Shown in pieces: positions 7,919 to 39,800 of a stretch of 64,000 nucleotides of DNA. The notes beneath the pieces were generated by a model. The model saw only the letters and a list, made by a program, of their open reading frames with translations, did no database searches and was not told the DNA's origin. The stretch is from NCBI GenBank assembly GCA_015179125.1, contig WHVA01000570.1, forward strand, positions 1 through 64,000. The letters are read 5' to 3'. Each line of letters opens with the position of its first letter. Within the stretch, counting starts at the first letter, position 1. Both the position numbers and the translations under genes were made by a program. This DNA is from Gautieria morchelliformis (lineage: Eukaryota > Basidiomycota > Agaricomycetes > Gomphales > Gomphaceae).

Positions 7919-9386
7919 CGCGCTACGGGTGGTGGGGAAAGTAGATGATCAGGGTGTTGTGTCAATGATAAATAGGCTGTGGCGATCTCGGATAACACAT
8001 AGAGGCATGAAGAAGAAGAGCAAAGCGATTAGTCGTTGAATGAGATCCGAACTACTGTAACAATGAATACGGCACAGCCAGTAAGTCCACCAAGCTGATG
8101 ATGCAAACCATTATGATAGTAATCCTAAGCTTTCTCAGCTGAGATGCGACTGTGGCAGTGCCACATTCAAGCCAGCCGTTGGATCCCAGCGGCGAGAACG
8201 CGTAAGACTTTCGACAAGGCGACGGGCCGTTAAAAGATGTGATGTAATACTGTGCCCTAAAACATTGCGAAGTGCAGTAGAGTGTGGGCGTGCTGCATGA
8301 GGTTGGTTATTGAGGGATCTCAGATGCGACCGGCGGGAGAAGTCGAGGACATAGTATCAAGAATATGAGAACTTGATCATATGTGTACAGCGCATCAACA
8401 GCAGTAGTAGACTCTAGGAAACAGATGCATGCATTAGTAACACTTTCCCACGCGGCGTGATTGATTCCTCGCGGTTCTTTGTATTTGATGTTATGTATGG
8501 CGGTCTCGTTTGCCGAATAAGGCGAAGATTGAATATTTAGTAAATCGTGATGTGGTCAGATTTTGAGATCCGAACATTGCTTTCTCGTCACACACTCCTA
8601 AACATCCACTTCTTTTTTCCACTACTCCGCGCTTTGCCTTTCGACGTGCTGGATACTGCAACTTCGAAAATGCCGTTCCTTCCCGTAGTAGAGCACCAAC
8701 GCAGGGGAGGTTCCTTGGTGGGATAGGTTTCTGCGCGTCTTGGCAAGGAATACTCTGGAGAAGTTAACTCGTCGACTCACGCAAACGAAGATCGATTTGT
8801 CCTCCCTCACAGTGTTCGAAGTTTGCGTTCCCGTTCGCTTTTTGCATCCCGCCTTGTCTCAGCGAAGTTGTAGGATGGACTCACGTACATGACGACTTTC
8901 AACGTCTTCCCGAACAGGTTCGTCTTCCCCGCCCCCCTCTTTTGATGACGTCTTCCTCCACGGTTGTTCTTCTAAGAAGATTGGGTAAGAAGTGGCGATC
9001 GGATTTGCTTGAAAGTTGTTTGTCGGCGCGGCCCTTGGTCGATAACTGCGTTACCTTTGACAAGAGAAAAAAAAAACAAAGAGGCTGTTTTTGAAGAGTA
9101 GTAGTGAACAGAATTGATTTAAAAAAAAAAAACAGACCCTGGTCAAATATCTTGGACATCTGACAAGGGCCACGGCGGCGACACCGGCTTCTAGTATCAA
9201 AGCCCCCATTCTCAAATGTCACACCAGCTGTAAATATCTGCAGCGTCGCTTTTATGCTCACACCTAATAGCGCTGAGTAATCGCACGCTACTCCAAACCC
9301 CAACCCTTGTATGAGAATCGAACCAGTCTCTATAATCGTTTCGCTTACTTGTTATAGATTTAGAACGACTTCTAATCGTTACCATA
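7919..9386. other. upstream region of the membrane protein gene
   Basis: No gene supported. On the minus strand a hydrophobic stretch (LIALLFFFMPLCV) lies at about 7990-8030 and might belong to a 5' exon with a signal peptide, but it ends in a stop and no splice site pair could be fitted. Two homopolymer A runs lie at 9067-9077 and 9120-9132. Confidence 0.35.
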
Positions 9387-9432
9387 GCGAGACTGGGTTC
9401 GAGAATCGAGTCTACCCCTTGTACTAAGTGCG
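9387..9432 (+). repeat. direct repeat, right copy
   Basis: Second copy of the repeat at 5690-5735 (GCGAGACTGGGTTCGAGAAT core followed by CGAGTCTACC and TTGTACTAAGTG). The copies differ by a CC insertion and a few bases. Confidence 0.5.
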
Positions 9433-10000
9433 TGAGAATTAGTTGGGGTCACGTGCGTGGGCGCGGGACCGCACTTGCAGGACAGCACCACCAAGCTTCG
9501 CGGAAAAACAACGGGGAACGGCGGTAATGCCTTCGACGTGCGTCGCGGCGGAGGGCTACGCGACATGCACAACATGTTCCGCTACTTGTCGTCCTGGAGC
9601 AGCGGCACACTGTGTGGGGGCGGTAAGCGATGTTGCCGCGCGAAGGAGTCTGCAGAACCGAAAGGCGGCAAACCGCGTGAGTGAAATCCTGCCCCTTGCT
9701 TGCGGTGATGCACACGTCGTGGGCGCGGCAACGGATCCACGAAACTTGCTCATGAAGCTCACTCACTGCAGGCACGACATGATCCGCAGCCGCATTGCCT
9801 CTCAGACACCGACCAGCTGCGCGTACGAAGACAAACGCGTACCTACGCGACGCGCGCTTCAACGGGACGCCGGAAATATGTACGTGGGAGCTGTACGCTT
9901 CGATCTGAGTGCCATGGGAATGCCATGTCTTCGATGAAGGGTCCGAACTGCCGTGCGGCGCCTCTCATTGTCTTTTCCCGCCTACCACCCACCTCGAACG
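9433..10000 (+). promoter_or_regulatory. upstream region of the NACHT-WD40 gene
   Basis: GC-rich sequence directly before the ATG at 10001. An open frame at 9443-9937 has no recognisable domain and an amino acid make-up typical of chance frames in GC-rich DNA. A pyrimidine-rich stretch (TTTTCCCGCCTACCACCCAC) precedes the start codon, as is usual in fungal promoters. No TATA box was seen. Confidence 0.3.
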
Positions 10001-13000
10001 ATGAACAACGTTAAGGCCACCGTGACTGCACCGTAAGTCAAGATCACTACTCTCTAGTGAGCCAACTGTTCACTCTCCATCCCAAAGTACTCCTGCAGCA
10101 ATCAAAGTGGCAGGAAAGGCTCCTTCGTTAGCGCTGTCTATTGCACACTGACTTTGACGATCGACAACAGGCTTGAAATGCACCCATCTTCCCAATACCA
10201 GACTCGGCAAGCGTCCTAGTCGCTGCTTCGTGAAACTCTTCGTCGATAAGGATATCCATAAGACTGCGTTAGCCGCCAGAGGCAATACTGCCTTGTGGAA
10301 TGAGTCATTCTTTTTGTGCGTTTAATTCCACTGTCATTGTCCCAACGTGATCTTAAATCTACACAGCTACCAATTGACTGCGTCCTCTGTGTTGGAAATC
10401 GAAGTATATGGGCATCATACCATCGGATGTGATCGCTACATAGGCGGTACGAAGGAAAGGATTGAGTTGTTGCTTGCAGAAGGAGCAACTGGAGGTCAGT
10501 CCTTTTCGCTCATCGGTGGAATGTACGTGTAAACATCGAACACAGCAACAGTTGCTCGGAAACTGCGAAAACAAGATAAGGCAGGCAAGATTCATGAGGT
10601 TCTCGCTGTCCTAGAGTTCACCCTCGCGTCTTTCGTGACGTCGGACCAGTTGAACGAAGCAGTCAGCGAAGCGAAAGTGGTCGACAGTATGAACCCCGCG
10701 CCGTCCAGAATTATTGAAGCAGGGAATGTGGTCGACGGCATCATTTCCGCCACCAAAAATACTGTCATCCCGACAATGGATGCTTGGGATCCACTCCTGG
10801 ACAAGATCGAGCGGTTTACCGAGATCGTGGATGCGATCTCTGAGGTATGGGTCAAACGTCGGTGGTCTCCCAGGTCATCTCATGGACACGGTTCGCTTGA
10901 TTCTAGGTCCATCCTTACGCGAAAATGGCATGGTCTATCCTGTCTAGTGTGCCAAAGGTAGATCTATCCCATGCACCAGCTGAATTGACATATCTGACGT
11001 CTCGCCCAGACGATCATTGCTCAGAGGGACCGGGACGATAGCATCAACGAGCTGGCGAAAATTATTGACGACACCTATGCATTCGTCGATCTGGCAGAGC
11101 CGTTGATGCAAATTGAATCGCAGCAGTCAATTATCTTAGCCTTGGCGCAACAGACGTTAGAGTGCGGCTACTTTGTCCGCGCCTACGCGAAAAACAAGAG
11201 TTTCTGTATGTTGGACCCACTGTCACGTGGGCCATAGCTGATGACTTTGTTCAGGGAAAAGAACCGCGAAATATCTGGTGTCGGATGTCGACAGCAAGGT
11301 CAAACAATACCAGGAATCTTTCACCAAACTCCAGCTGGAGTTAGAACAGCATGCCGTGATTCATACCGAAATCAAAGTACTACGTGTTCTGGAGGCCGTC
11401 GGCGACTTGTGTGAGTTTGCCGAATAGCGGCCGTTCCCGAGGCTTATAAACTTTGCACTCAGCCGGGGAAATTTGGCTGAACGACATGCCCTACGCAGCA
11501 GGTGCTTGTTTCGATCCTGATAAAGGATGTTTGCCGGGCACTCGGGAAAAGGTTATTGCAGAAATATGCGATTGGGTCAACCAGGATACCGACGATACCC
11601 CTCGGGTATTTTTCCTGAATGATGTTGCGGGTTCGGGCAAGTCAGCGATTGCTCACGAGGTCGCACGACGATTTGATAAGCTCAAACGTCTGGGATCATC
11701 GTACTGTTTTGACCGCGCTCATCTGGCAGAGCGATCCCCCGCCAATATCTTTAGCACGATTGCTCGTGATCTGGCTGATCTGGACCCACAACGCAAAGCA
11801 TCCTTGTGGAAAGTGGTTGGAGAGCAGAGAGCACTTCGGACCACACGCATACCTCGTCTGCAGTTCCAGAAGTTCATTCTAGACGCCGCCCATGGGATAA
11901 CGACCATCGGACCAACGGTGATCGTTATCGATGCATTGGATGAGAGCGGAGACATGAAATCTCGCCAGGGCCTCTTGTCTGTCCTTGGCAACGAAGCTGC
12001 AGAACTGCCGCCTAACTTCCGCATTCTCATCACCTCCCGTGCCGAACAAGACATCCAGGGTGCGCTTCTTGGGAAGAAGCACGTGCTTTTCAGATCCCTA
12101 AAGGATATGGACCCGAACCCTGCCGATGACGTCGCCCGCTTTGTGAAATATGAACTGGGTAACATTACGGCCCTCGAGCGCAAATGGCCCAACGATGACT
12201 GGTGTAGGTTATTAGTCGAGAAATCTGAAGGTCACTTTCAATGGGCGTCCACGGCTTGTCGATTGGTCAAAGGAGATGGGAAGTATGGTCGGGATCCTGT
12301 GAACCAACTGCACAGACTTTTGACCAAGAACCTCCGTGGGTTGGATCAGCTCTATCTCGGCATTCTCAATCAGATATTCGGGGGTGACGATGACTTGATG
12401 GATGATGACGATTTCAGGCATCGCTTTCACTTGGTGATGGGCTGCATGCTTGCCGCCAGAGAACCGCTCTCGATGTCTGCCCTGCAGAAATTATGCAAGG
12501 AAAACGACTCGGGTACCGAGGTTCATGATATAGTCGGACCTATGGGTGCTCTGCTGAGCGTTCCTTCTCGTGAATCTGGCCCAATCAGTCTGCTGCACAC
12601 ATCTTTTCGTGACTTCTTGACAGATCACAGCCGGAGCGGACCCTACTACATTGACACATCGTTACACCATGTCGGCCTTGCCCATTCATCCTTGCGCGTG
12701 ATGGTAAAGGAACTGTGTTTCAACATTTGTCATCTTGAAACATCACATCTGCGCAACGACGATGTCGTTGACTTGAAGGCACGGACCAAGAAGAATATAT
12801 CCTCACAACTTTCCTACTCTTGCCGTTTCTGGGCTGACCATGTTTCCGACACGACCTTTACGGCTGATATAGGTAGAAAAGTCCAGGAGTTTTTCGAGAC
12901 TAAGCTACTCTACTGGCTAGAAGTTTTGAGTTTGCTTAAGACTGTACCCCTGGCATCGGCAGCTCTCTCATCAATGGTTGTGTGGAGCCAGGTAAGCGCC

Positions 13001-16000
13001 ACGCCCGAGCGCTATGGCTTTGATGACGAGTTCTGACATGACTCTAATGAACGTCAGGATGCAGATACTACAGCATTCGTAACGGATGCTCGCAATTTTG
13101 TAGCTACCTTTGGGAGTGTAATTTCTCAGAGTGCTCCCCATCTCTATTTGTCGGCACTCCCGTTTGCACCTGAAAGGTCGAAACTAAGCGAGGTTTACCT
13201 TCCGCGATTTCCACGACTACTCAGCATCGAGACCGGGAAAGCGACGACGTGGCAACCTATTCAATCTGTTCTGGTAGGTCATACCATGTCCGTCTCATCG
13301 GTGGCATTCTCGCAGGACGGCGAGCGCATCGTCTCTGGGTCTCATGACAGGACGATCCGTGTGTGGAATGCAGACACCGGAGAGCTCATTGCACCATTCG
13401 AAGGACACATCGGCGACGTGTTGTCGGTGGCGTTCTCGCATGACGGCAAGCGCATTGTCTCCGGGTCTGATGACAAGACGATCCGTGTGTGGAATGCGGA
13501 CACCGGGGAGCTCATTTCAGCACCGTTCGAAGGCCACACCCACTCTGTCTCGTCGGTGGCGTTCTCGAACGACGGAAAGCGCATCGTCTCCGGGTCTGAT
13601 GACAACACGATCCGTGTGTGGAATGCAGACACTGGGGAGCTCATTTCAGCACCATTCAAACACCACAGCCGCACTGTCTCGTCGGTGGCGTTCTCGCGCG
13701 ACGGCAAGCACATCGTGTCCGGGTCTCGTGACAGCGCGATCCATGTGTGGAATGCAGACACCGGGAAGTTCATTTCAGCAAGAGGTCACACCCGCGACGT
13801 CTGGTCGGTGGCGTTCTCGCACGACGGCAAGCGCATCGTCTCCGGGTCTTCAGACAAGATGATCCGTGTGTGGAATGCAGACACCCGGGGGTTCGTTTCA
13901 GCACCGTTCGAAGGCCACACCTGCCCCGTCTCGTCGGTGGCATTCTCGCACGATGGCAAGCGTATCGTCTCCGGGTCTGGTGACTATACGATGTCGATCG
14001 GTGTGTGGAATGCAGACACCGGGAAGCTCATTTCAGGACCATTCAACTACGACGCCACCGTCAGGTCGGTGGCGTTCTCGCACGATGGCACACGCATCGT
14101 CTCCGGGTCTTCGGACAAGACGATCCGTGTGTGGAACGCAGACACCGGGGAGCTCATTGCAGCCCCATTCAGAGGCCACATCGGCGATGTCTGGTCGGTG
14201 GCGTTCTCGCACGACAGCAAGCGCATCGTCTCTGGGTCTTCGGACAAGACGATCCGTGTGTGGAATGCAGACAACGGGGAGCTCATTTCAGCACCATTCG
14301 AAGGCCACACCCACGCTGTCAGGTCGGTGGCGATCTCGCACGACGGCAAGCGCATCGTCTCCGGGTCTGAGGACAAGACGATCCGTGTGTGGAATGCAGA
14401 CACAGGAGAGCTCATTTCAGCACCATTGGAAGGCCACACCAGCACCGTCAGGTCGGTGGCGTTCTCCCAGGACGGCAAGCGCATTGTCTCCGCGTCTGAT
14501 GACCACATGATCCGTGTGTGGAATGCAGGCACCGGAAAGCTGATTTCAGCACCATTCGAAGGCCACACCCGCATGGTCATGTCCGTGGCGTTTTCGCCCG
14601 ACGGCAAGCTCATCGTCTCCGGGTCTGGTGACACCAGCATCTGTGTGTGGAATGCAGACACTGGGGTGGTCATTTCAGCAGCATACGTACGCCACAACTG
14701 CAGCGTCACGTCGGTGGCATTCTCGCAAGACGGGAAGCGCGTCGTCTCCGCGTCTTCAGACAGGATGATCCGTGTGTGGAATGTCGATGCCGGGGGGTTC
14801 ATTTCGGCACCATTCGAAGGCCACACCCACGCCGTCTCGTCGGTGGCGTTCTCGCACGACGGAAAGCGCATCGTCTCTGGGTCTTGGGACAAGACGATCC
14901 GTGTGTGGAATGTAGACACCGGGAAGGCCATTTCAGCACCATTTGAAGGCCACACTCACATTGTCACCTCGGTTGCGTTCTCGCAGGACAGCAAACGCAT
15001 CGTCTCCGGGTCTGATGACAAGACAGTCCGTGTCTGGAATGCAGACACCGGGGAGGTCATTTCAGCACCATTCGAAGGTCATACCCGCGACGTATTGTCG
15101 GTGGCATTCTCGCAGGATAGCAAGCGCATCGTGTCCGGGTCTGATGACTACACGATCCGTGTGTGGAATGCAGACACCGGGAAGCTCATTTCTGCACCAT
15201 TCGAAGGCCACAGCAACACCGTCAGGTCGGTGGCATTCTCCCAGGACGGCAAGCGCATCGTCTCCGGGTCTGATGACAAGACGATCCGTATGTGGAATGC
15301 AGACACCGGGGAGCTCATTTCACCACCATTCGAAGGCCACACCCATGCTGTCTCGTCGGTAGCGTTCTCCCAGGATGGCAAGCGCATCGTCTCCGGGTCT
15401 GGTGACAAGACGATCCGTGCGTGGAATGCAGAGACCTGGGAGCTCATTTCAGCACCATTCAAAGGCCACACCCACATCGTCAGCTCGGTTGCGATCTCGC
15501 ATGACGGCAAGCGCATCGTCTCCGGGTCTGATGACCACACAATCTGTGTGTGGAATGCAGACACCGGGGAACTCATTTCAGCACCATTCGAAGGCCACAC
15601 CCACTGGGTGAACTCGGTGGCGTTCTCGCAGGATGGGACGCGCATCGTTTCCGGGTCTAATGACATGACGATCCGTGTGTGGAATGCAGACACCGGAGAG
15701 CTCATTGCACCATTCGAAGGCCACATCGGCGACGTCTTGTCGGTGGCGTTCTCGTACGACGGCAAGCGCATCGTCTCCGGGTCTGAGGACAAGATGATCC
15801 GCGTGTGGAATGCAGGCACCGGGGAACTCATTTCAGCACCATTCGAAGGCCACAGTGAGACCGTCAGGTCGGTGGCGTTCTCGCAGGATGGCAAGCGCAT
15901 CGTCTCCGGGTCTGATGACATGACGATCCGTGTGTGGAATGCAGACACAGGAGAGCTCATTTCAGGGCCATTCAAAGGCCACTACGATAAGGTCATGTCG

Positions 16001-17165
16001 GTGGCGTTCTCGCCGGATGGCAAGCGCATTGCCTCCGGGTCTCATGAGAGGACGATCCGTGTGTGGAATGCAGACACAGGGGAGCTCATTTCAGGACCAT
16101 TCAAAGGCCACACCCTCACTGTCGAGTCGGTGGCGTTCTCGCACGACGGCAAGCGCATCGTCTCCGGGTCTCATGACAAGACAATCTGTGTGTGGAATGC
16201 AGACACCGGGAAGCTCATTTCAACACCATTCAAAGGCCACACTGACGCTGTCTCGTCGGTGGTGTTCTCGCACGACGGCAAGCGCATCGTCTCCGGATCT
16301 TTTGACAAGACAATCCGTGTGTGGAATGCAGACCCTGGGAACGTCAATTCACCACCATTCGAAGGTCATACCGCCGGCGTCACGTCGGTGGCGTTCTCGC
16401 ACGACCGCAAGCGCATCGTCTCCGGTTCTGAGGACAAGACGATCCGTGTGTGGAATGCAGACACTGGGGGGCTCATTTCAGCGCCATTCGAAGGCCATAC
16501 TCACACTGTCTCGTCGGTGGCGTTCTCCCACGACGGCAAGCGCATCGTCTCCGGGTCTGAGGACAAGACGATCTGTGTGTGGAATGCAGACACCGGGGAG
16601 CTCATTTCAGCACCATTCGAAGGCCACACGGCCGGCGTCATGTCGGTGGCATTCTCGCAGGACGGCAATTGCATCGTCTCCGGATCTCATGACCACACGA
16701 TCCGTATGTGGAATGCAGAAACCGGGGAGGTTACTTCACCACCATTCGAAGGCCACACCGGGTTTGTCACGTCGGTGGCGTTCTCGCATGATGGCAAGCG
16801 CATCGTCTCTGGGTCTGATGACAGGGCGATCCGTGTATGGAATGCAGACACCGGAGAGGTCATTTCAGGACCATTCGCCGGCCAAGCCCCTTGTCAGTAG
16901 CTGTTACCTGGATTTGTCCGACCCAATGAAATCTGCTAATATCCTTTGCACAGCTACAGGGCCTGGGTTTCGACAAGACTCACGGCTACAAAATGGCTGG
17001 TTACTCAACTCTCCCTCAGAACTTTTATTCTGGGTTCCGCCCTGGTCTCAGTCAAGTTTGTGGTGGCCGGTGAATACTGCTGTTATTGCAAAGGGGTCCA
17101 CAAGGCTTGATCTCAGCCGGTTTGAGCATGGGAGTTCATGGATGAAATGCAGAGAGGCCATATGA
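10001..17165 (+). CDS. STAND/NLR-like receptor: C2-like, NACHT, 28 WD40 repeats
   Basis: Exons that keep one frame: 10171-10315, 10367-10494, 10552-10844, 10907-10957, 11010-11215, 11255-11410, 11463-12991, 13058-16892 and 16954-17165. A first exon 10001-10032 (MNNVKATVTA) is likely, but its link to 10171 is unresolved. The N-terminus is C2-like (RCFVKLFVDKDIHKTALAA, WNESFF, SVLEIEVYGHH). A helical linker follows, then NACHT with Walker A DVAGSGKSA (about 11617-11646), Walker B VIVIDALDE (about 11921-11947) and RILITSRAE (about 12020). The WD40 part fills the eighth exon. The last exon gives LLFWVPPW and WWPVNTAVI, the tail shared by agaric members of this family. Such proteins are cytosolic signal-transducing ATPases implicated in non-self recognition (HET-E/HET-D are ascomycete cousins). 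No stop or frame break occurs in about 6 kb, so the gene looks functional. Confidence 0.9.
13268..16882 (+). repeat. 28 tandem WD40 repeats, 129-bp period
   Basis: The eighth exon holds 28 consecutive WD40 units, mostly 43 codons long, of the form GHxxxVxSVAFSxDGKRIVSGS followed by xDxTIRVWNADTGxLIS. Twenty-eight equals four seven-bladed propellers. Variation concentrates at unit positions 3-5, 7, 13, 23, 25, 26 and 28 and around 36-43, while the rest is almost invariant even at the DNA level. Units 1-2 and 19-20 share the rare ELIAPFE ending followed by GHIGDVLSVAFS, which shows that larger blocks were duplicated as well. Confidence 0.92.
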
Positions 17166-19294: not shown

Positions 19295-22200
19295 GCATTT
19301 TCAGACTGCTTACACCCTACGTATCCCTTTTCTTCACTATGTCCATGATAACTCGTTCCTGCACCCTTCGGGGTATCTCAGAACAACGACGTTTCTCGGA
19401 AGCCCCCGACGACTCACCACCGTCCCCGGGGATACCCCTGGCAGACCCCGCCGAGCCTAGTAACAAAGGCAAAGGTAGGGCTGACCCCGGTGACCCTTCA
19501 GGTGATCCAGGTGATGGCTCTGGAGGTTCTGACAACGATCAGGACCTCCCCACCTACCACCCGAGGACCTCGGTGACCTCGAGGATAACGAGCTTATGCG
19601 TCGAGTGTTCATCAAACTCGCGAAACCTCGCGAGTCCGAAGCACGAGCCAAGGTCAAGGAACCGGATAGTTATGACGGTACTGACCAGGCCAAGCTTCGC
19701 ACCTTCTTCCTTCAATGCGTACTCAACTTCCGAGATTGCCCCACAGTGTTCAAGACTGGGGCCTCGAAGGTGCAGTATGCTATTTCTTACCTGTCCGGCT
19801 CAGCTCTACAGTATTTCGAGCCGGCGATCCTCGGCGAAGTCCAACCCGAGCCAGATTGGCTCGAGGACTGGGACAGCTTCAAGGCCGAGCTCGAGCTCAA
19901 CTTCGGCCCATACGACAACGCTGCCCAAGCCGAGATTGACCTCGAGAAGATCGTCATGAAAGAGCACCACAAGGCCACGCGATTCTTTATCGACTTCACC
20001 CGAGCTTCGACTCGGACTCAGTGGAACGATGCGGCCCTCCGACACTTCGCCTACAAGGGCTTGGCCAAAAGAATCAAGGACGACTTACTTCACTTCCCTT
20101 GATTCCGCAGCCTCGCCGAGCTTAGGAACTTCGTGCTGGAATGGGACAGCCGTTACTGGGAGCGTAAGAAATATGACGCCATGATCAATGGTCGTAGCTC
20201 CCAGCCTGCACGCACTGCTAATCAGTCCAGCAGCAATGCCACTAACAACAACCAGTCATCCAGCGGTTCTAATAACAATAAGAACCGCAACAAGACTAAC
20301 AACAACGGCAAGGGTTCCAACAACAACTCTTCGAACAACAAGAGCCAGCCCGACATTTCGAGCAAGCTCGGGAAGGATGGCAAACTCCTTCCCGAGGAGC
20401 GCCAACGTCGGGTCGACCAGGGCCTTTGTCTGCTTTGCGGCACCAAAGGCCACATCGTCAAGGACTGCCCGAAGAACAAGTCTACCAACGGTAGCGGTTC
20501 TAAAGGTCGGGCAGCGAAGACCCCTAACAAGGGGACTTTGGCCTCCATTATGGAGGTGAAAAAATAGGTAGCAACCTCGGAACCACACGATCCGAGGATT
20601 GCGGTAACCTCACCCGTGTGCTCAGACTCAGTGCCACTTCTCATTCATTGTCCAAAGATTCCCTTAATGTAGATCTAACCTCGCCTTCGCTCCCCAACGT
20701 CGCTTTTGTTGCATTAGTTGACTGCGGGTCCTCAGATTGTTTTATTGAATCCAGATTTGTCCAGGAGTACTCTATGCCTGCTTATCCTGTCTCCCCTATA
20801 CCTTTGAAACTATTTGACGGTAGTACTAACACTACCATTACCCAAGCTCTAGACCTCTGCATTTGCTTTCCGACTGGCGAACAACAATGGGTTACCTTCT
20901 ACGTAACCTCGCTCGACTCGAGTTGCTCGGTGGTACTTGGCCACAACTGGCTCACCCGCTACAATCCGTCGATTGACTGGGTATTGGGCAGTATTACTTT
21001 CAAGACCATCGACCTAACAACGACTCCAGCGACCACGGCGATGTCAGCCCGCTCAGCCTCGGCTACGACTTCGACCTCGCCTACGGCATCTTCGCCCCCG
21101 CCTCCGACCTCGCATCAGAACTCGCCTCCGAAGTTGCAAGCACCGCTCGTTTCCCTAATCAATGCACCCGCTTTCATGCGCGTGGCTAGTTGGAAGGGTC
21201 CGAAGTGTTTCAGCTCAATCTGGCTTCACCTGAGCTCCTCGCCAGAGGGGCAACATCGGGAGAAAGTTCTTCCGAGCTTTCTGAGAACGTTAAGAAACAT
21301 GTTCCCGAAGTATATCACGAATTTGCAGATGTGTTCAGCAAAGCACGCGCTGACACTCTAGCTCCCCACCGACCCCACGATATCAAAATCAACCTCGAAG
21401 AAGGGACCTCGCCGCCTATTGGTCCCATCTACTCTCTCTCGGCTTCCGAACTCAAAGCACTTCGCGAGTTCATCGACAAGCACTTGAACATCGGTTTCAT
21501 CCGACCTTCACGCTCGCCTCATGGTGCACCGGTATTGTTTGTTCGCAAAAAAGATGGCTCCCTTCGGTTGTGTGTCGACTTCCGAGGTTTAAACAAGATC
21601 TCAAAAAAAGATCGGTATCCATTGCCATTGATTGCTGACTTACTTGATGCTCCAAAGAATGCTCACATCTATACGAAGATTGACCTTCGTCACGCTTACC
21701 ACCTCGTACGGGTGGCTGAGGGTGACGAATGGAAAACCGCCTTCAGGACTCGCTATGGGTCTTTTGAATGGTTGGTTATGCCATTTGGTCTCACTAACGG
21801 CCCTGCTGCTTTCCAGAGATTCATGAACGAGATTTTCGCCGACCTTTTGGACGTTTGTGTGGTGGTATACTTGGATGACATTCTAATCTACTCCAGTGAC
21901 CCCTCCAAACATGTTGAACATGTCAAGGAAGTCTTGCGACGACTGCGACTCAACAACCTCTTCGCCAAAGAAGACAAATGCGAGTTTCATCGCGACTCGG
22001 TTGAATTCCTCAGCTACATACTCTCTCCCGAGGGCCTAACTATGGCGGATGACAAGGTAAAGGTCACTCAAGACTGGCCTGAACCTCGCAAAGTTCGCGA
22101 CATCCAGTCCTTCCTCGGTTTCGCCAACTTCTACCGATGTTTCATTCACAACTACTCCGACATCACCATTCCTCTCACCCAACTCACCCGCAAGGGTACC

Positions 22201-24403
22201 CCTTGGAACTTTTCCGAGGATTGTCGGCAGGCCTTCAACTTGTTGAAGAAGGCGTTCACTACCGCTCCTATCCTTACCCACTGGATTCCTGACCTTCCAC
22301 TAATTGTAGAGACTGATGCTTCAGATTATGCCTTAGCGGCAATCTTATCGTTGCGAAGCTCAGAAGGCGACCTTCATCCCGTCGCTTTCCACTCCCGCAC
22401 ATTCACCTCTACCGAGCTCAACTACGATGTTCACGACAAGGAGCTCCTAGCCATGTTTGACGTGTTTCAACGCTGGCGACACTACCTCGAGGGCTCTGGC
22501 GACCCTGTCGACGTTATTACTGATCACAAGAACCTCGAATACATCTAAACTACGAAGCTCTTGACCCGTCGACAAGCTCGGTGGTCAGAATACCTTTCCC
22601 AGTGCAACCTCACCATACGCTTCTGACCAGGTCGCCTCGGAACGAAGCCTGACTCTCTCACTAGACGATGGGACGTCTACCTTAAAGGGGGGAATAGCGA
22701 CTATGCCACCATAAACCCACAGAACCTACGGCCAGTCTTTACCCAACACCAGCTGGCATCGTCCCTTAGAGCTACTAACCTCGCTCCCGTCATACTCCGA
22801 GCCGCTTCACTGCTTGATACCGAGCAGATCCGAGCTGACATACTAGCAAACCTCCCCTCAGACCCCATAGCCAAGTCGCACCTCGGCTTGGTTAATGACC
22901 CGAGGTGGACCACAGACCCCGAGGGCTTTCTCAAGCTTGACAACAGAACCTATGTTCCAGCGGCCCAAGACCTTCGACTTCGCATCCTGCAATACAAGCA
23001 CGACCACATTCTCTTGGGACACTTTGGGGTCAACAAGACCTTGGAGTTGATCTGACGAGATTACACTTGGCCAGGGATTAGATCCTTTGTCAAAGAGTAT
23101 TGCAAGACTTGCACCACTTGTATGCGAAGCAAGCCGCAACGTCACAAGCCCTATGGCCTCCTCAAACAACTTCCCGTTCCCGAGAAGCCTTGGAATTCCA
23201 TCTCTATGGATTTCATTGAGCAGCTTCCCCCTTCATCCGAGTTCACCTCCATCCTAGTGATTGTTGACCGCTTCACTAAGCAGGTTATCTTCATTCCAAC
23301 CACAGACAAGATAACCTCGCAAGAGCTCGCTCATCTCTTCGTCATTCATGTCTTTTCCAAGCATGGAGTCCCCTAGCACGTCACCTCAGACAGGGGTTCC
23401 CAGTTCGTCTCGCACTTCTGGCGTTCCCTAGGGAAAGCCTTGGACATGCGGTTGCATTTCACCTTGGGATATCATCCCGAGGGTGACGGTCAAACCAAGC
23501 GTGCTAACCAGACCTTGGAACAGTACCTCAGGATATATTGCAACTATCAGCAGTCCAATTGGGCTTCGCTCCTTCCCCTAGCCGAGTTTGCCTACAACAA
23601 CGCGCCTAGCGCAACCACCGGCATCTCCCCATTCTTTGCTAATAAGGGTTACCATCCGAACCTCGCAGTTCACCCCGAGCGCGACCTCGCCTCGGCACGA
23701 GCCCATGACTTCGTGGTTGACCTGGACGAGCTTCACCAAGAACTTCGCCGTGCCATCCTCGAGGCTCAGAAGGCTTACCAAGCCTCGGCCGATGTTCGCC
23801 GCAAGCCCGCTCCTGATTTTCAAGTAGGATCCCTCGCCTTTGTGAAGGCACAGTACTTCAGAACGACTCGCCCTACCAAAAAGCTCGCCGAGAAGTTCTT
23901 GGGTCCTTTTGAGATCATTTCCCGAGCAGGTACTCACTCCTTCACCCTTCGACTTCCAGAACACATCCATTCAGTCCATCCAGTATTCCACGTATCTAAG
24001 CTCGAACCAGCCTCGCCCAATACCATCCCGAACCGAGTTCAGCCGCCTCCGCCCCCAGTCGTGATCGACGGCGAACCCGAGTTCGAGGTTTCCGAAATCC
24101 TCGACTCGAAGATCGATAATCGATGCAAAAGCTGCAACTTACTCTATCTTGTTAGGTGGACTGGTTACGGAGGTACCGACGAAGACACCTCGTGGATCCT
24201 CACTTCCGAGCTTGATCATGCCTCAGAGCTGGTCACTGACTTCCACGAGTCTTACCCGGCCAAGCCAGGACCTTTGACTGCTCTATGACCATTCCCTGTT
24301 TAACCCCCCATGACCCCCAGTAGTTAGATAACAAAAATTCCTCGCAATCGAATCACAAAATCAATGAAACACCAGAAAAGATTCCATTATTTCCATCAGT
24401 AGA

Positions 24404-28581: not shown

Positions 28582-31500
28582 GTTGGGCGATTACTCACCG
28601 CTTTGGAAAAGCTCGCCAACAATGGACTTCGTGGTGGTGGAGATCAAAATGACTCCAAGGCAAAACTCTGGGAACCCGACCAATTTGATGGCTCGGACCC
28701 AAAGAAACTCTGAGGATTGCTTCTCCAATGCGCATTGAATTTCCATGCCAAACCCCAAGCATTCTGAGATGGTTCTACGAAAGTGAATTATGTTTTGTCT
28801 TTCCTCAAGGGAACATCTCTGGTACCTACCTTGCAGATGACGCTGCTGACGAACCCGCATGGGCTTTGGATTATACGGCATTCACGGAAGAGCTCTATCT
28901 GAATTTTGGCCCCTAGGATCAGGTTGCGGATGCCGAAATTGAGCTCGAGAATTTGGTCATGAAGGATAACCACAAGGCAACTCAGTTTTTTGTCGAATTC
29001 TACAGGCTTGCATCCGTCCTCCAGTATAACGATTCGGCTTTGCATCGCCGAGCCTATTTGGCTTTGCCAAAGCGAATCAAAGATGAGATGGTGCATTTTG
29101 ACAAACCCCGAACCCTTGATGACCTCCAAGACCTCATTCAGAAAATCGACCAGAGGTATTGGGAACATTGTGGAAAACTCTCTCGTGAGACTCATTCCAC
29201 TCCAAACCTGAGGCCAAGAATGACAGATCAGCCAACCAAAACCGAGGTTCCCAGAACAACGACCGACGACAAGGTCAAGGTTCAGGCAACTCCAACGCTA
29301 ATGCCGGTAATAACTGAGGCAAACGCAAGGATAAGCTGAAAGGGAATAATCAGTCTGAGGGTCAGAAAAAACCCGAACCATACAGTCCTTCCTTGGCTTC
29401 ACCAATTTTTACCTCCACTTCATCTATAACTATTCCGACATCACAGTTCCCCTCACCCGGCTTAAACCTAAAGCCACCCCATGGGAATTTACTGAAGAAT
29501 GCCTAAAGTGTTTCCATTATATCAAGGAAGCTTTCACTTCAGCTCCGATTCTGTCGCATTGGATTCCTGACCAGCCTATGGTCGTGGAAACTGACGCCTC
29601 GGATTATGCCCTTGGTGCAATCCTGTCTCTGTTCAATGATGAAGGCATCCTGCACCCAGTTGCTTTCCACTCCCGAACATTTTCCGGTGCCAAATTAAAT
29701 TACGATGTTCATGATAAAGAGCTACTGGCAATTTTTGAAGCATTTCAACGTTGGAGACACTATTTGGAGGGCTCTGGCTCACCCATTGATGTTGTCACCG
29801 ATCACAAAAACTTGGAGTATTTTGCCAGCACAAAGTTGCTAACCCGACAACAAGCCCGCTGGTCTGAATTCCTCTTGCAATTTAACCTCATTATTCAGTT
29901 CTGTCCTGGAAAGCCAACGCTCTAATGGGATGTCTACCTTACAGAGGGACGTAATGACTACGGCTCAGTCAACCCACAGAACTTCTGACCGATTTTCACT
30001 AATCAACAACTGTCAGAATCCCTCCAGGCAACTTGTTTGCTTGCACCTGCTCTCTGAGTAAGCACTGTGATGTACTCCAAGAAGCTTCATGCCGACATCT
30101 TAGCTAACCTGGCATCTGATCCTGTAGCTTGGCATCTCGGTGATAGCTCTGACCTGAGATGGACGCAAACCGCGGACAGCTTCCTCTGCCTCGACGGCCC
30201 CATATACATTCCCAATGCCGACAACCTCCGGCTCTGAGTGCTCCAGTACAAACATGACCATGTACTCTTGGGACATTTTGGCCAAAACAAGACCTTACAA
30301 CTCATCCAACAGGAATATACATGGCCTGCACTTCGGTCTTTCGCCATCGACTTCTGCAAGTCATGCACTACTTGCTTGCGTTCAAAGTCACAGCGTCATC
30401 AGCCTTATGGCTCCCTGCAGCAGCTTCTGATACCTGAGCAACCTTGGAATTCCATCTCCATGGATTTCATTCAGCAGTTGCTGGCGTCTTTGGGATTCAC
30501 TGCAATCCTCGTAGTAGTTTGTGGCTTAACTAAGCAGAGCATATTCATCCCAAGTTATGACAGGGTCACCTCCACAGACCTCACCCGCCTGTTTGTCTTG
30601 CATGTATTCTCGAAGCATGATGTCCCTAGTCATGTGACATTGGACCAAGGTTTGGAATTCTTCTCGCACTTTTTCCATTCCCTTGGTAAGGCTCTCCACA
30701 TGAAACTGCATTTCACCTCAGGACATCATCCTGAAGGCGATGGTCAAACCGAACATGTAAACCAAACTCTGGAACAGTATCTTCATGTATATCGCAACTA
30801 CCAACAGGACAATTGGTCTGAGTTGCTACCACTTGCTGAGTTTGCGTACAACGATGCTCCAAGTGCAACTAGCAGCATATCACCCTTCTTTTCCAACAAG
30901 GGATACAACCCGAACCTCATGGTTCACCCCAAACAGGACCTCACATCCTCCCAAGCCCAAGACTTCGCAGTTGACCTTGACCAGTTACATGCTACCCCAA
31001 AGGAGCAAATTAAACTCACTCAATCTCGGTACCAGGTCTTGGCTGATGGGTGTCGTGCTCCCGCTCCCGAGTTCATGATAGGATCCTCTGCGTTTGTAAA
31101 ACCACAGTTCTTCCAGACAACCCAGCCCTCGAAGAAGCTGGCTGAGAAGTACCTCTGTCCCTTTGAGGTTATAGGCCAGGCTGGATCCCAAGCTTACATT
31201 CTACACCTACCAGATAGCCTTCAGGTAGTCCACCCGGTCTTTCACATCTCAATGCTCGAACCCGCAGTCCCAAACATCATTCCGAATTGGATTCAGTCTC
31301 CGCCGCCTCCAGTTTAGATTGACGGCACGACAGAGTACAAGATTTCCGACATTCTTCATTCCAAGATCAACCAACGATGTAGACCCTGTAACCTCCTGTA
31401 CCTTGTCCGTTGGGCTGGTTATGAAAGAACCAATGAAGAGACATCATGGGTCCTTGCGACTGAGCTCGGCCATGCAGCCAAGATTGTGACTGACTTTCAC

Positions 31501-39199: not shown

Positions 39200-39378
39200 G
39201 ATGGATGATGGCCCCAACACCTGGCGTCCTGGCAGGAATGATGCGAATAGCGAATGCGAAAGCAGTATGGTGACGAATATTTTGGCAAGATATTCGCTGG
39301 TTCGGGAAGTCGCTCGCTGGTTCAGGAGGTCATTCGCTGTGTGTTGAGGGATGATTCGCAGAATAAACGAGTCATGAC
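39200..39378 (-). mobile_element. short degraded end of the 1.27-kb LTR family
   Basis: Ends GAATAAACGAGTCATGACA like copies A and E and is preceded by GCGAATAGCGAATGCGAAAG words typical of the family. The rest is too diverged to align by eye. Confidence 0.45.
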
Positions 39379-39379
39379 A

Positions 39380-39800
39380 TCATAGTTGACCAGATTTCTC
39401 TGACACCCCCGAGAGTGTTTTGTGAGAGTCATGCCAGACATCTGGCTGGGTTTTGTAGAATTCGTAGTTGACGGGATTTCTCCGACACCCCGACAGTGTG
39501 ATGTGAGAGTCATGCCAGACATCTGACTGGGTTTCGTAGAATTTGTAGTTGACTGGATTTTTCCGACACCCCCAACAGTGTTTTGTGAGAGTCATGCCAG
39601 ACATCTGACTGGGTTTTGTAGAATTCGTAGTTGATGGGATTTCTCCGACACCCCGACAGTGTGTTGTGAGAGTCTTGCCAGCCATCTGACTGGGTTTTGT
39701 AGACATCATAGTTGACCAGTTTTCTCCGACACCCCAAGAGTGTCAGAGAATTCGTGCCAGACAATTTCTGACAGTCCTTTGTAGAACTCATGGTCGACCC
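39380..39800. repeat. 82-bp minisatellite, about five copies
   Basis: Units start near 39382, 39465, 39546, 39629 and 39709 with the word TAGTTGAC(C/G/T)GG and share TCTCCGACACCCC, GTGAGAGTCATGCCAGACAT and CTGACTGGGTTTTGTAGAA. The last unit decays toward 39850. Spacing is 80-83 bp, so frames shift between units and a coding role is unlikely. Confidence 0.75.

Follow-up and report, generated by a model that had tools for sequence, protein, structure and literature searches.

A gene that probably encodes an intracellular receptor of the fungal NOD-like (NLR) type, in which a C2 domain and a NACHT core would be joined to a propeller sensor binding non-self or modified-self, lies on the forward strand of contig WHVA01000570.1 of the basidiomycete Gautieria morchelliformis. 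The window, meaning the whole 64,000-nucleotide stretch analysed here, falls within this contig (C638 in our numbering of the 1113 contigs of the 122 Mb genome), and the assignment is made from its sequence. An earlier note on the same DNA had proposed a receptor of this type on finding an array of 28 WD40 units. The proposal is supported by the NACHT exon upstream of the array, recognised through a match to NPHP3_N, and by an excess of amino-acid change at the repeat positions that are selected in the HET-D/HET-E proteins of Podospora anserina.

The array and the columns at which its units differ

The exon that carries the array (13058-16900, +) is open throughout and bears all 28 WD40 units, in an open frame of 1287 codons. 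Tandem Repeats Finder describes 129 bp in 27.9 copies with a score of 4360, Pfam WD40 matches 28 stretches, and successive units are spaced by 43 residues at 23 of the 27 steps, with 41, 42, 42 and 44 at the others, bearing out the claim of 28 units in a single open frame (13274-16876, +). Twenty-four units are 43 residues long, two are 42, one is 41 and one is 44. An array of 28 units is far beyond chance and supplies the protein with C-terminal superstructure-forming repeats. To call the units nearly identical, as the earlier note did, was too strong: the mean identity of the 24 units free of insertions and deletions (indels) is 0.827 for DNA and 0.735 for protein, with 13 of their 276 pairs reaching at least 85% protein identity. 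By this unit-pair comparison, which is other than the published procedure, the window lies below the level taken as high internal conservation (>85% identity over at least 100 residues; Dyrka 2014), while the mean protein identity of the sister arrays L008, L036, L034 and L035 is above 0.85. Open frames also run over the array on the minus strand (14047-14955 and 15148-15975) and probably follow incidentally from the codon usage of the 129-bp repeat.

The columns of the unit are numbered here from the E of E-G-H; the earlier note counted from the G of GH, so that the sites it listed become columns 4, 5, 6, 8, 14, 24, 26, 27 and 29. Entropy in the window is highest at columns 5, 6, 8, 24 and 26, followed by 14, 4, 37, 1, 38 and 41. 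Together the nine listed sites, out of 43 columns, account for 54% of the amino-acid entropy and 59% of the non-synonymous differences, and the proportion of non-synonymous differences (pN) is 0.416 at these sites against 0.079 in the remaining columns, the codon counts taking in the 24 indel-free units. The count of non-synonymous against synonymous change that the note had suggested therefore gives an uneven distribution, with 41% of the non-synonymous differences elsewhere. Variability is not confined to the listed sites, columns 1, 37, 38 and 41 being more variable than 27 and 29.

In the Podospora family codons 7, 9, 25 and 27 are strongly selected and flank the conserved codons 8 and 26 (Paoletti 2007, PMC1805685). 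When the conserved V and D are aligned, these codons correspond to columns 6, 8, 24 and 26 here, and at the four taken together pN exceeds the synonymous proportion (pS), as the note's placing of the change at HET-D/HET-E positions would lead one to expect. Their pN is 0.528; pS is 0.382 when taken from these codons and 0.239 for the array as a whole, giving pN/pS ratios of 1.38 (bootstrap over units 1.11-1.75) and 2.21 (1.94-2.57), respectively. Random sets of four columns attain the window's mean pN with a frequency of 2.5e-5, and 27 different four-site combinations are found among the 28 units. Outside columns 4, 5, 6, 8, 24 and 26 pN/pS falls to 0.38 against the array-wide pS.

The same excess of amino-acid change at the four HNWD-type codons is seen when 22 paralogous arrays (without L025 and L021) are pooled, pN/pS being 1.30 (1.18-1.45) against the same codons and 2.08 (1.83-2.38) against the array-wide pS, with 0.36 in the other columns. 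The entropy profile of the window correlates at 0.93 with the mean of 22 sister arrays, a set that includes L025, and has the identical top five columns. Since the HET-D/HET-E pattern recurs at the same codons in a C2-type NLR and in its pooled sister arrays, it is not a peculiarity of Podospora.

Strands taken from an AlphaFold model (a, 7-12; b, 18-23; c, 28-32; d, near 38-43) would put the variable sites in two loops, d-a and b-c, or where strand a begins. In HET-E the d-a and b-c sites are on the top face (PMC1805685), and by analogy those of the window would be too. The loops so assigned to the top face have pN/pS of 0.94 (d-a) and 1.04 (b-c) in the window, compared with 0.25 and 0.46 for the bottom-face loops and 0.25 for the strands.

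The receptor gene and its partial copy

The gene, with introns of the GT-AG type, is made up of the following parts.

10173-10454, + strand: C2 domain, matched by Pfam C2 on the spliced product of two exons (10173-10315 and 10367-10494)
10546-11410, + strand: linker exons (10546-10844, 10907-10957, 11010-11205 and 11255-11410), open in the spliced frame
11463-12991, + strand: NACHT exon, with an NPHP3_N/NACHT core at 11561-12040, the P-loop GSGKS and the motif DALDE
12992-13057, + strand: last intron, 66 bases, GTAAGC...CGTCAG, directly 5' of the sensor exon
13190-13273, + strand: conserved head EVYLPRFPRLLSIETGKATTWQPIQSVL preceding unit 1, with a similar head on the paralogous arrays except L032 and L033
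13274-16876, + strand: WD40 array of 28 units, each of about 43 residues
16877-16900, + strand: tail AGQAPCQ and stop codon; most paralogous arrays end in a similar short tail

The NPHP3_N match scores 79.7 bits against a cut-off of 24.8 (79.5 bits on the spliced frame) and, with GSGKS and DALDE, identifies a NACHT-type STAND ATPase with a P-loop. AAA_16 also matches this exon (34.2 bits, cut-off 32.6), the Pfam NACHT family itself stays under its cut-off (23.3 bits, 26.7), and a weak winged-helix match to HTH_TANC1 lies 3' of the core, likewise under cut-off (25.7 bits, 27). A phmmer search of the PDB with the NACHT exon returned nothing at E <= 1. In a splice model built from GT-AG sites and frame, the C2 domain scores 35.8 bits (E 9.7e-9, cut-off 22); at the N-terminus a HET domain has no Pfam match at E <= 1, C2 being present instead, and for the linker exons Pfam gives no family above cut-off. 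The NACHT exon upstream, the C2 domain in the spliced 5' exons and the WD40 array together define a C2-NACHT-WD40 NLR, of which the C2 would be the candidate N-terminal effector domain. The conserved head may provide an outer strand.

The sequence upstream of the array aligns to 20 paralogous loci, over introns as well as exons. For the NACHT exon the ratio of non-synonymous to synonymous rates (dN/dS) against 19 of these is 0.24-0.33 (median 0.26), which places the core under purifying selection; the twentieth, L011, has a stop and was left out. This locus is a half copy of the gene on contig C927 (C927:1-8500), where 9194-13014 (+) is repeated at 98.4% identity. The match breaks off inside the last intron, the NACHT frame of the copy is broken and the last 2.9 kb of C927, beyond the match, are free of WD40 units. 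Duplication in this gene family can thus leave the sensor behind.

Unit numbers across the family

A search of the genome with the NACHT exon gave at least 85 matches including the window, and hence at least 84 close relatives (85 of 415 candidates scored), while one with NPHP3_N gave at least 154 (150 of 585 scored). Thirty canonical arrays, the window among them, have 4, 5 (two arrays), 6 (two), 8, 13, 14 (eleven), 15 (four), 16 (three), 17, 21 (three) and 28 units. Half of them (15 of 30) are multiples of seven, where 4.3 would be expected (binomial p 3.8e-6; 14 of 29 without the window), and seven is the sole modulus from 2 to 12 that stands out. These p-values are overstated because the arrays share ancestry and the sampling of loci was not random. 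Ten loci were picked by the similarity of their arrays to that of the window, and seven of the ten are multiples of seven; among the loci picked by NACHT the figure is 7 of 19 (p 0.013). Before the last four arrays joined the latter set it stood at 4 of 15 (p 0.16). The four, taken after the idea had formed as the next in NACHT rank, with two containing stop codons passed over, have 14, 14, 14 and 4 units.

Seven arrays were kept out of this test: L025 as a near copy of L020, L021 for its abnormal tail, L013 and L022 for their broken frames, L031 for a stub that follows its 28 full units before the stop, and L032 and L033 for their different head. Counting all seven as found gives 17 of 37. 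L003-L006 coincide in position with L016, L023, L017 and L014, and each place was counted once. In L031 (C223:102000-105950) the 28 complete units are followed by 12 residues and a stop, the sequence beyond which is hardly covered. L032 and L033, both on contig C759, have 31 units and 21 units in frame, respectively, behind a head unlike that of the NLR genes, and units 13-15, 17-19, 22-24 and 26-28 of L032 find their best match at a lag of nine. L012, L015, L028, L029 and L042 are open arrays with just 4-6 units between the usual head and tail; so few units would be insufficient for one propeller unless assembled in trans.

Simple inheritance of the 14-unit arrays is not supported, collinearity being hardly seen save in the recent pair L020/L025. 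For nine such arrays 35 of the 36 pairs are without a clear shared order of units (z-scores -1.9 to 2.1), L020/L025 alone standing out at 9.7, and the 27 pairs added by three later 14-unit arrays range from -2.1 to 2.6. Pairing the three 21-unit arrays gives -1.2, 0.9 and 2.4. A slight shared order is present in L041/L043 (2.6), L002/L016 (2.4) and L044/L034 (2.3). Growth by blocks of seven units is not supported either, the strongest internal lag being a multiple of seven in two of 23 arrays (L002, 14; L031, 21). In the window a lag of 18 units comes first (0.811) and one of 7 second (0.810), against a mean of 0.797, and with lag 7 in second place a seven-unit step may belong to its own past.

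Bacterial WD40 arrays behave alike: 43 of 62 with a mean identity of at least 0.35 and at least five units are multiples of seven. These come from the best 80 of 230 confirmed stretches (324 matched), of which 69 were complete frames, 47 of them multiples of seven, and 62 passed the filter. Published work already gives peaks at 7 and 14 for repetitive WD40 proteins (Pereira and Lupas 2022), a substantial number of proteins with 14 repeats (Hu 2017) and a drop above 14 (Dyrka 2014); a limited literature search that drew on sources in part turned up no account of one NLR family peaking at 21 and 28. The present analysis adds that whole propellers are preferred in the family as sampled, which makes the 28 units of the window less likely to be a matter of chance. 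The pile-up at 14, 21 and 28 perhaps reflects selection for whole seven-bladed propellers.

Homogenisation between units was compared over 29 arrays with 423 units, without L013, L022, L032 and L033. Without gaps, DNA identity averages 0.855 for units of the same array and 0.834 for units of different ones, and for 185 of the 423 units the nearest relative belongs to the array they come from. The window has 9 such units out of 28 by the same ungapped comparison, and own-array relatives dominate in L008 (12 of 14), L031 (26 of 28), L034 (12 of 14) and L038 (11 of 14). The ungapped window mean of 0.797 is low because the four units with indels pull it down; on its indel-free units (0.827) the window is seventh lowest of the 29 arrays, with six lower and 22 higher. 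The concerted evolution suggested in the earlier note is thus weakly supported for the window, nine units being nearest to their own array and 22 of the 28 other arrays being more homogenised.

Alternative explanations and known systems

If the gene works as its parts suggest, the units would fold up into beta-propellers set in tandem, of which there would most likely be four with seven blades each, with the changing residues lining the top faces and binding a non-self or modified-self ligand. Binding would switch the NACHT core with its nucleotide, and the C2 part at the N-terminus would then trigger cell death or defence, perhaps by acting at a membrane. New specificities would arise by point change at the top-face codons and by gain, loss and exchange of units, with selection tending to retain whole propellers. 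Tentatively, then, selection may count blades: units would be gained and lost freely, the receptors that persist would mostly have 14, 21 or 28, and the window would hold four recognition discs.

Several observations weigh against this reading. The pN/pS values come from pair counts that ignore the tree and saturation, and for three of the 22 paralogous arrays (L020, L025 and L026) the ratio at columns 4, 5, 6, 8, 24 and 26 is 0.74-0.80. The d-strand region of the window units has a ratio of 1.05, so that part of the variation is off the top face. L020 and L025 are 98.3% identical over 5.8 kb, and their arrays differ by 15 non-synonymous and 2 synonymous codons; 14 of the 15 are outside the six main variable columns and the single change within them is at column 4, which argues against any simple account of selection still at work in that pair. 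(L021, a third near copy with 10 units, best matches units 1 and 5-13 of L020.) Four of the 28 units carry indels. For the first coding exon none of the single-intron solutions tried is open and every two-intron solution needs at least one weak site; as this exon is not fixed, the N-terminus may be defective. Unit numbers of 4, 5, 6, 8, 13, 15, 16 and 17 also occur among the canonical arrays. The AlphaFold models have low global confidence, with a mean predicted local distance difference test score (pLDDT) of 73.5 and a predicted template modelling score (pTM) of 0.36 for all 28 units (1200 residues, 20-row alignment), and 83.1 and 0.46 for the last 14. The weak junctions of the 14-unit model, near residues 169-172 and 412-430, are at the ends of units 4 and 10 rather than 7. 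Foldseek places PDB entry 2ymu first and APAF-1 entries next, with an overall misfit (template modelling scores of 0.28-0.29 by query length, 0.28 for 2ymu, and large root-mean-square deviations). Parts of the models are confident blades, and the predicted blades are credible, with no trustworthy partition among them; the same trouble with partition was met with a 47-blade protein (Pereira and Lupas, PMC9218822). Of the earlier proposal that 28 is four times seven, the preference for sevens in unit number lends weak support, and neither model is arranged as 4 x 7 or 7 + 7.

It might be argued that the gene is a decaying receptor, once a normal NLR, whose little-homogenised array is drifting and whose 28 units are a useless by-product of past unequal exchange. 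The low rank of its mean unit identity, the indels, the odd units 6 and 7, the near-identical 5' half copy without an array and the unsettled first exon would all fit. Set against them are a frame open across 1287 codons, the pN/pS of 0.38 outside the variable columns and the NACHT dN/dS of about 0.26, and it is L013 and L022, not the window, whose frames are broken; decay is accordingly judged improbable, the corrected homogenisation rank weakening it only slightly. Still less probable is that the array serves as a general protein-interaction scaffold, its loops under relaxed constraint with no diversifying selection for recognition. In WD40 proteins the loop positions of the units are widely variable, the same-codon pN/pS is just 1.3-1.4 and the top-face loops taken whole are near one; however, the bottom-face loops are at 0.25-0.65, the four named sites exceed one and the change falls on exactly those codons that are under selection in the HET-D/HET-E proteins.

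The preference for whole propellers faces a more serious objection, though we still think it unlikely, namely that the pile-up at 14, 21 and 28 descends from a few ancestors or is an artefact of how the loci were fetched, so that four times seven is coincidental. The weaker excess among the NACHT-picked arrays, particularly before the last four, the choice of ten loci by likeness to the window array, the frequency of 15- and 16-unit arrays and the slight shared order in three pairs speak for it. On the other side, only the near-identical L020/L025 are clearly collinear among the nine 14-unit arrays and the 27 later pairs add no clear case, internal lags seldom favour sevens, seven alone stands out among the moduli, and the bacterial arrays show the same preference. 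Should selection indeed count blades, four discs could read several ligand faces, or several ligands, at once. A family in one genome with canonical arrays of 4 to 28 units is also a natural series linking blade number, folding and specificity.

Elsewhere in the window, Gypsy-like retroelement frames at 20618-24285 and 30238-31314 have matches to reverse transcriptase/RNase H, chromodomain, Tf2-1-like SH3 and integrase zinc-binding domains, with an aspartyl protease match under cut-off. Along with the GT-AG introns and the domains of the receptor gene, these frames indicate a fungal source, and the order C2-NACHT-WD40 suggests a basidiomycete (Dyrka 2014). Other tandem arrays lie at 745-1628, 2070-2854 and 39376-39743, with periods of 30, 180, 147, 144 and 81/163 bp; the frames over the first two match no family or only DUF6132.

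The kind of receptor described here is already well known, and this copy is unusually long. APAF-1, among the best PDB matches, has a double WD40 propeller. It is a STAND ATPase as well, metazoan, with divergent blades and an N-terminal domain of another type. By both sequence and fold the best PDB match to the window is 2ymu, from Npun_R6612 (WRAP) of Nostoc punctiforme, a STAND protein whose 14 WD40 blades form two seven-bladed propellers (PMC6805158, PMC9218822); unlike the window it is bacterial and its blades are nearly identical, with 10 point mutations over 14 blades. The C2-NACHT-WD40 NLRs of basidiomycetes share the domain types of the window (Dyrka 2014), whose 28 units exceed the maximum of 21 stated in that survey; a NACHT protein of Penicillium camemberti has 47 blades (PMC9218822). 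With HET-D, HET-E and HET-R (HNWD and NWD) of P. anserina the gene has in common a NACHT core, a C-terminal array of highly similar WD40 units, a variable unit number and an excess of change at the codons equivalent to 7, 9, 25 and 27 (PMC1805685). In contrast to these proteins, its N-terminus matches C2 rather than HET, its units, of about 43 residues, are less alike, and it has 28 of them, where active HET-D/E alleles have 10-12 repeats and three cryptic ones (PMC12222747).

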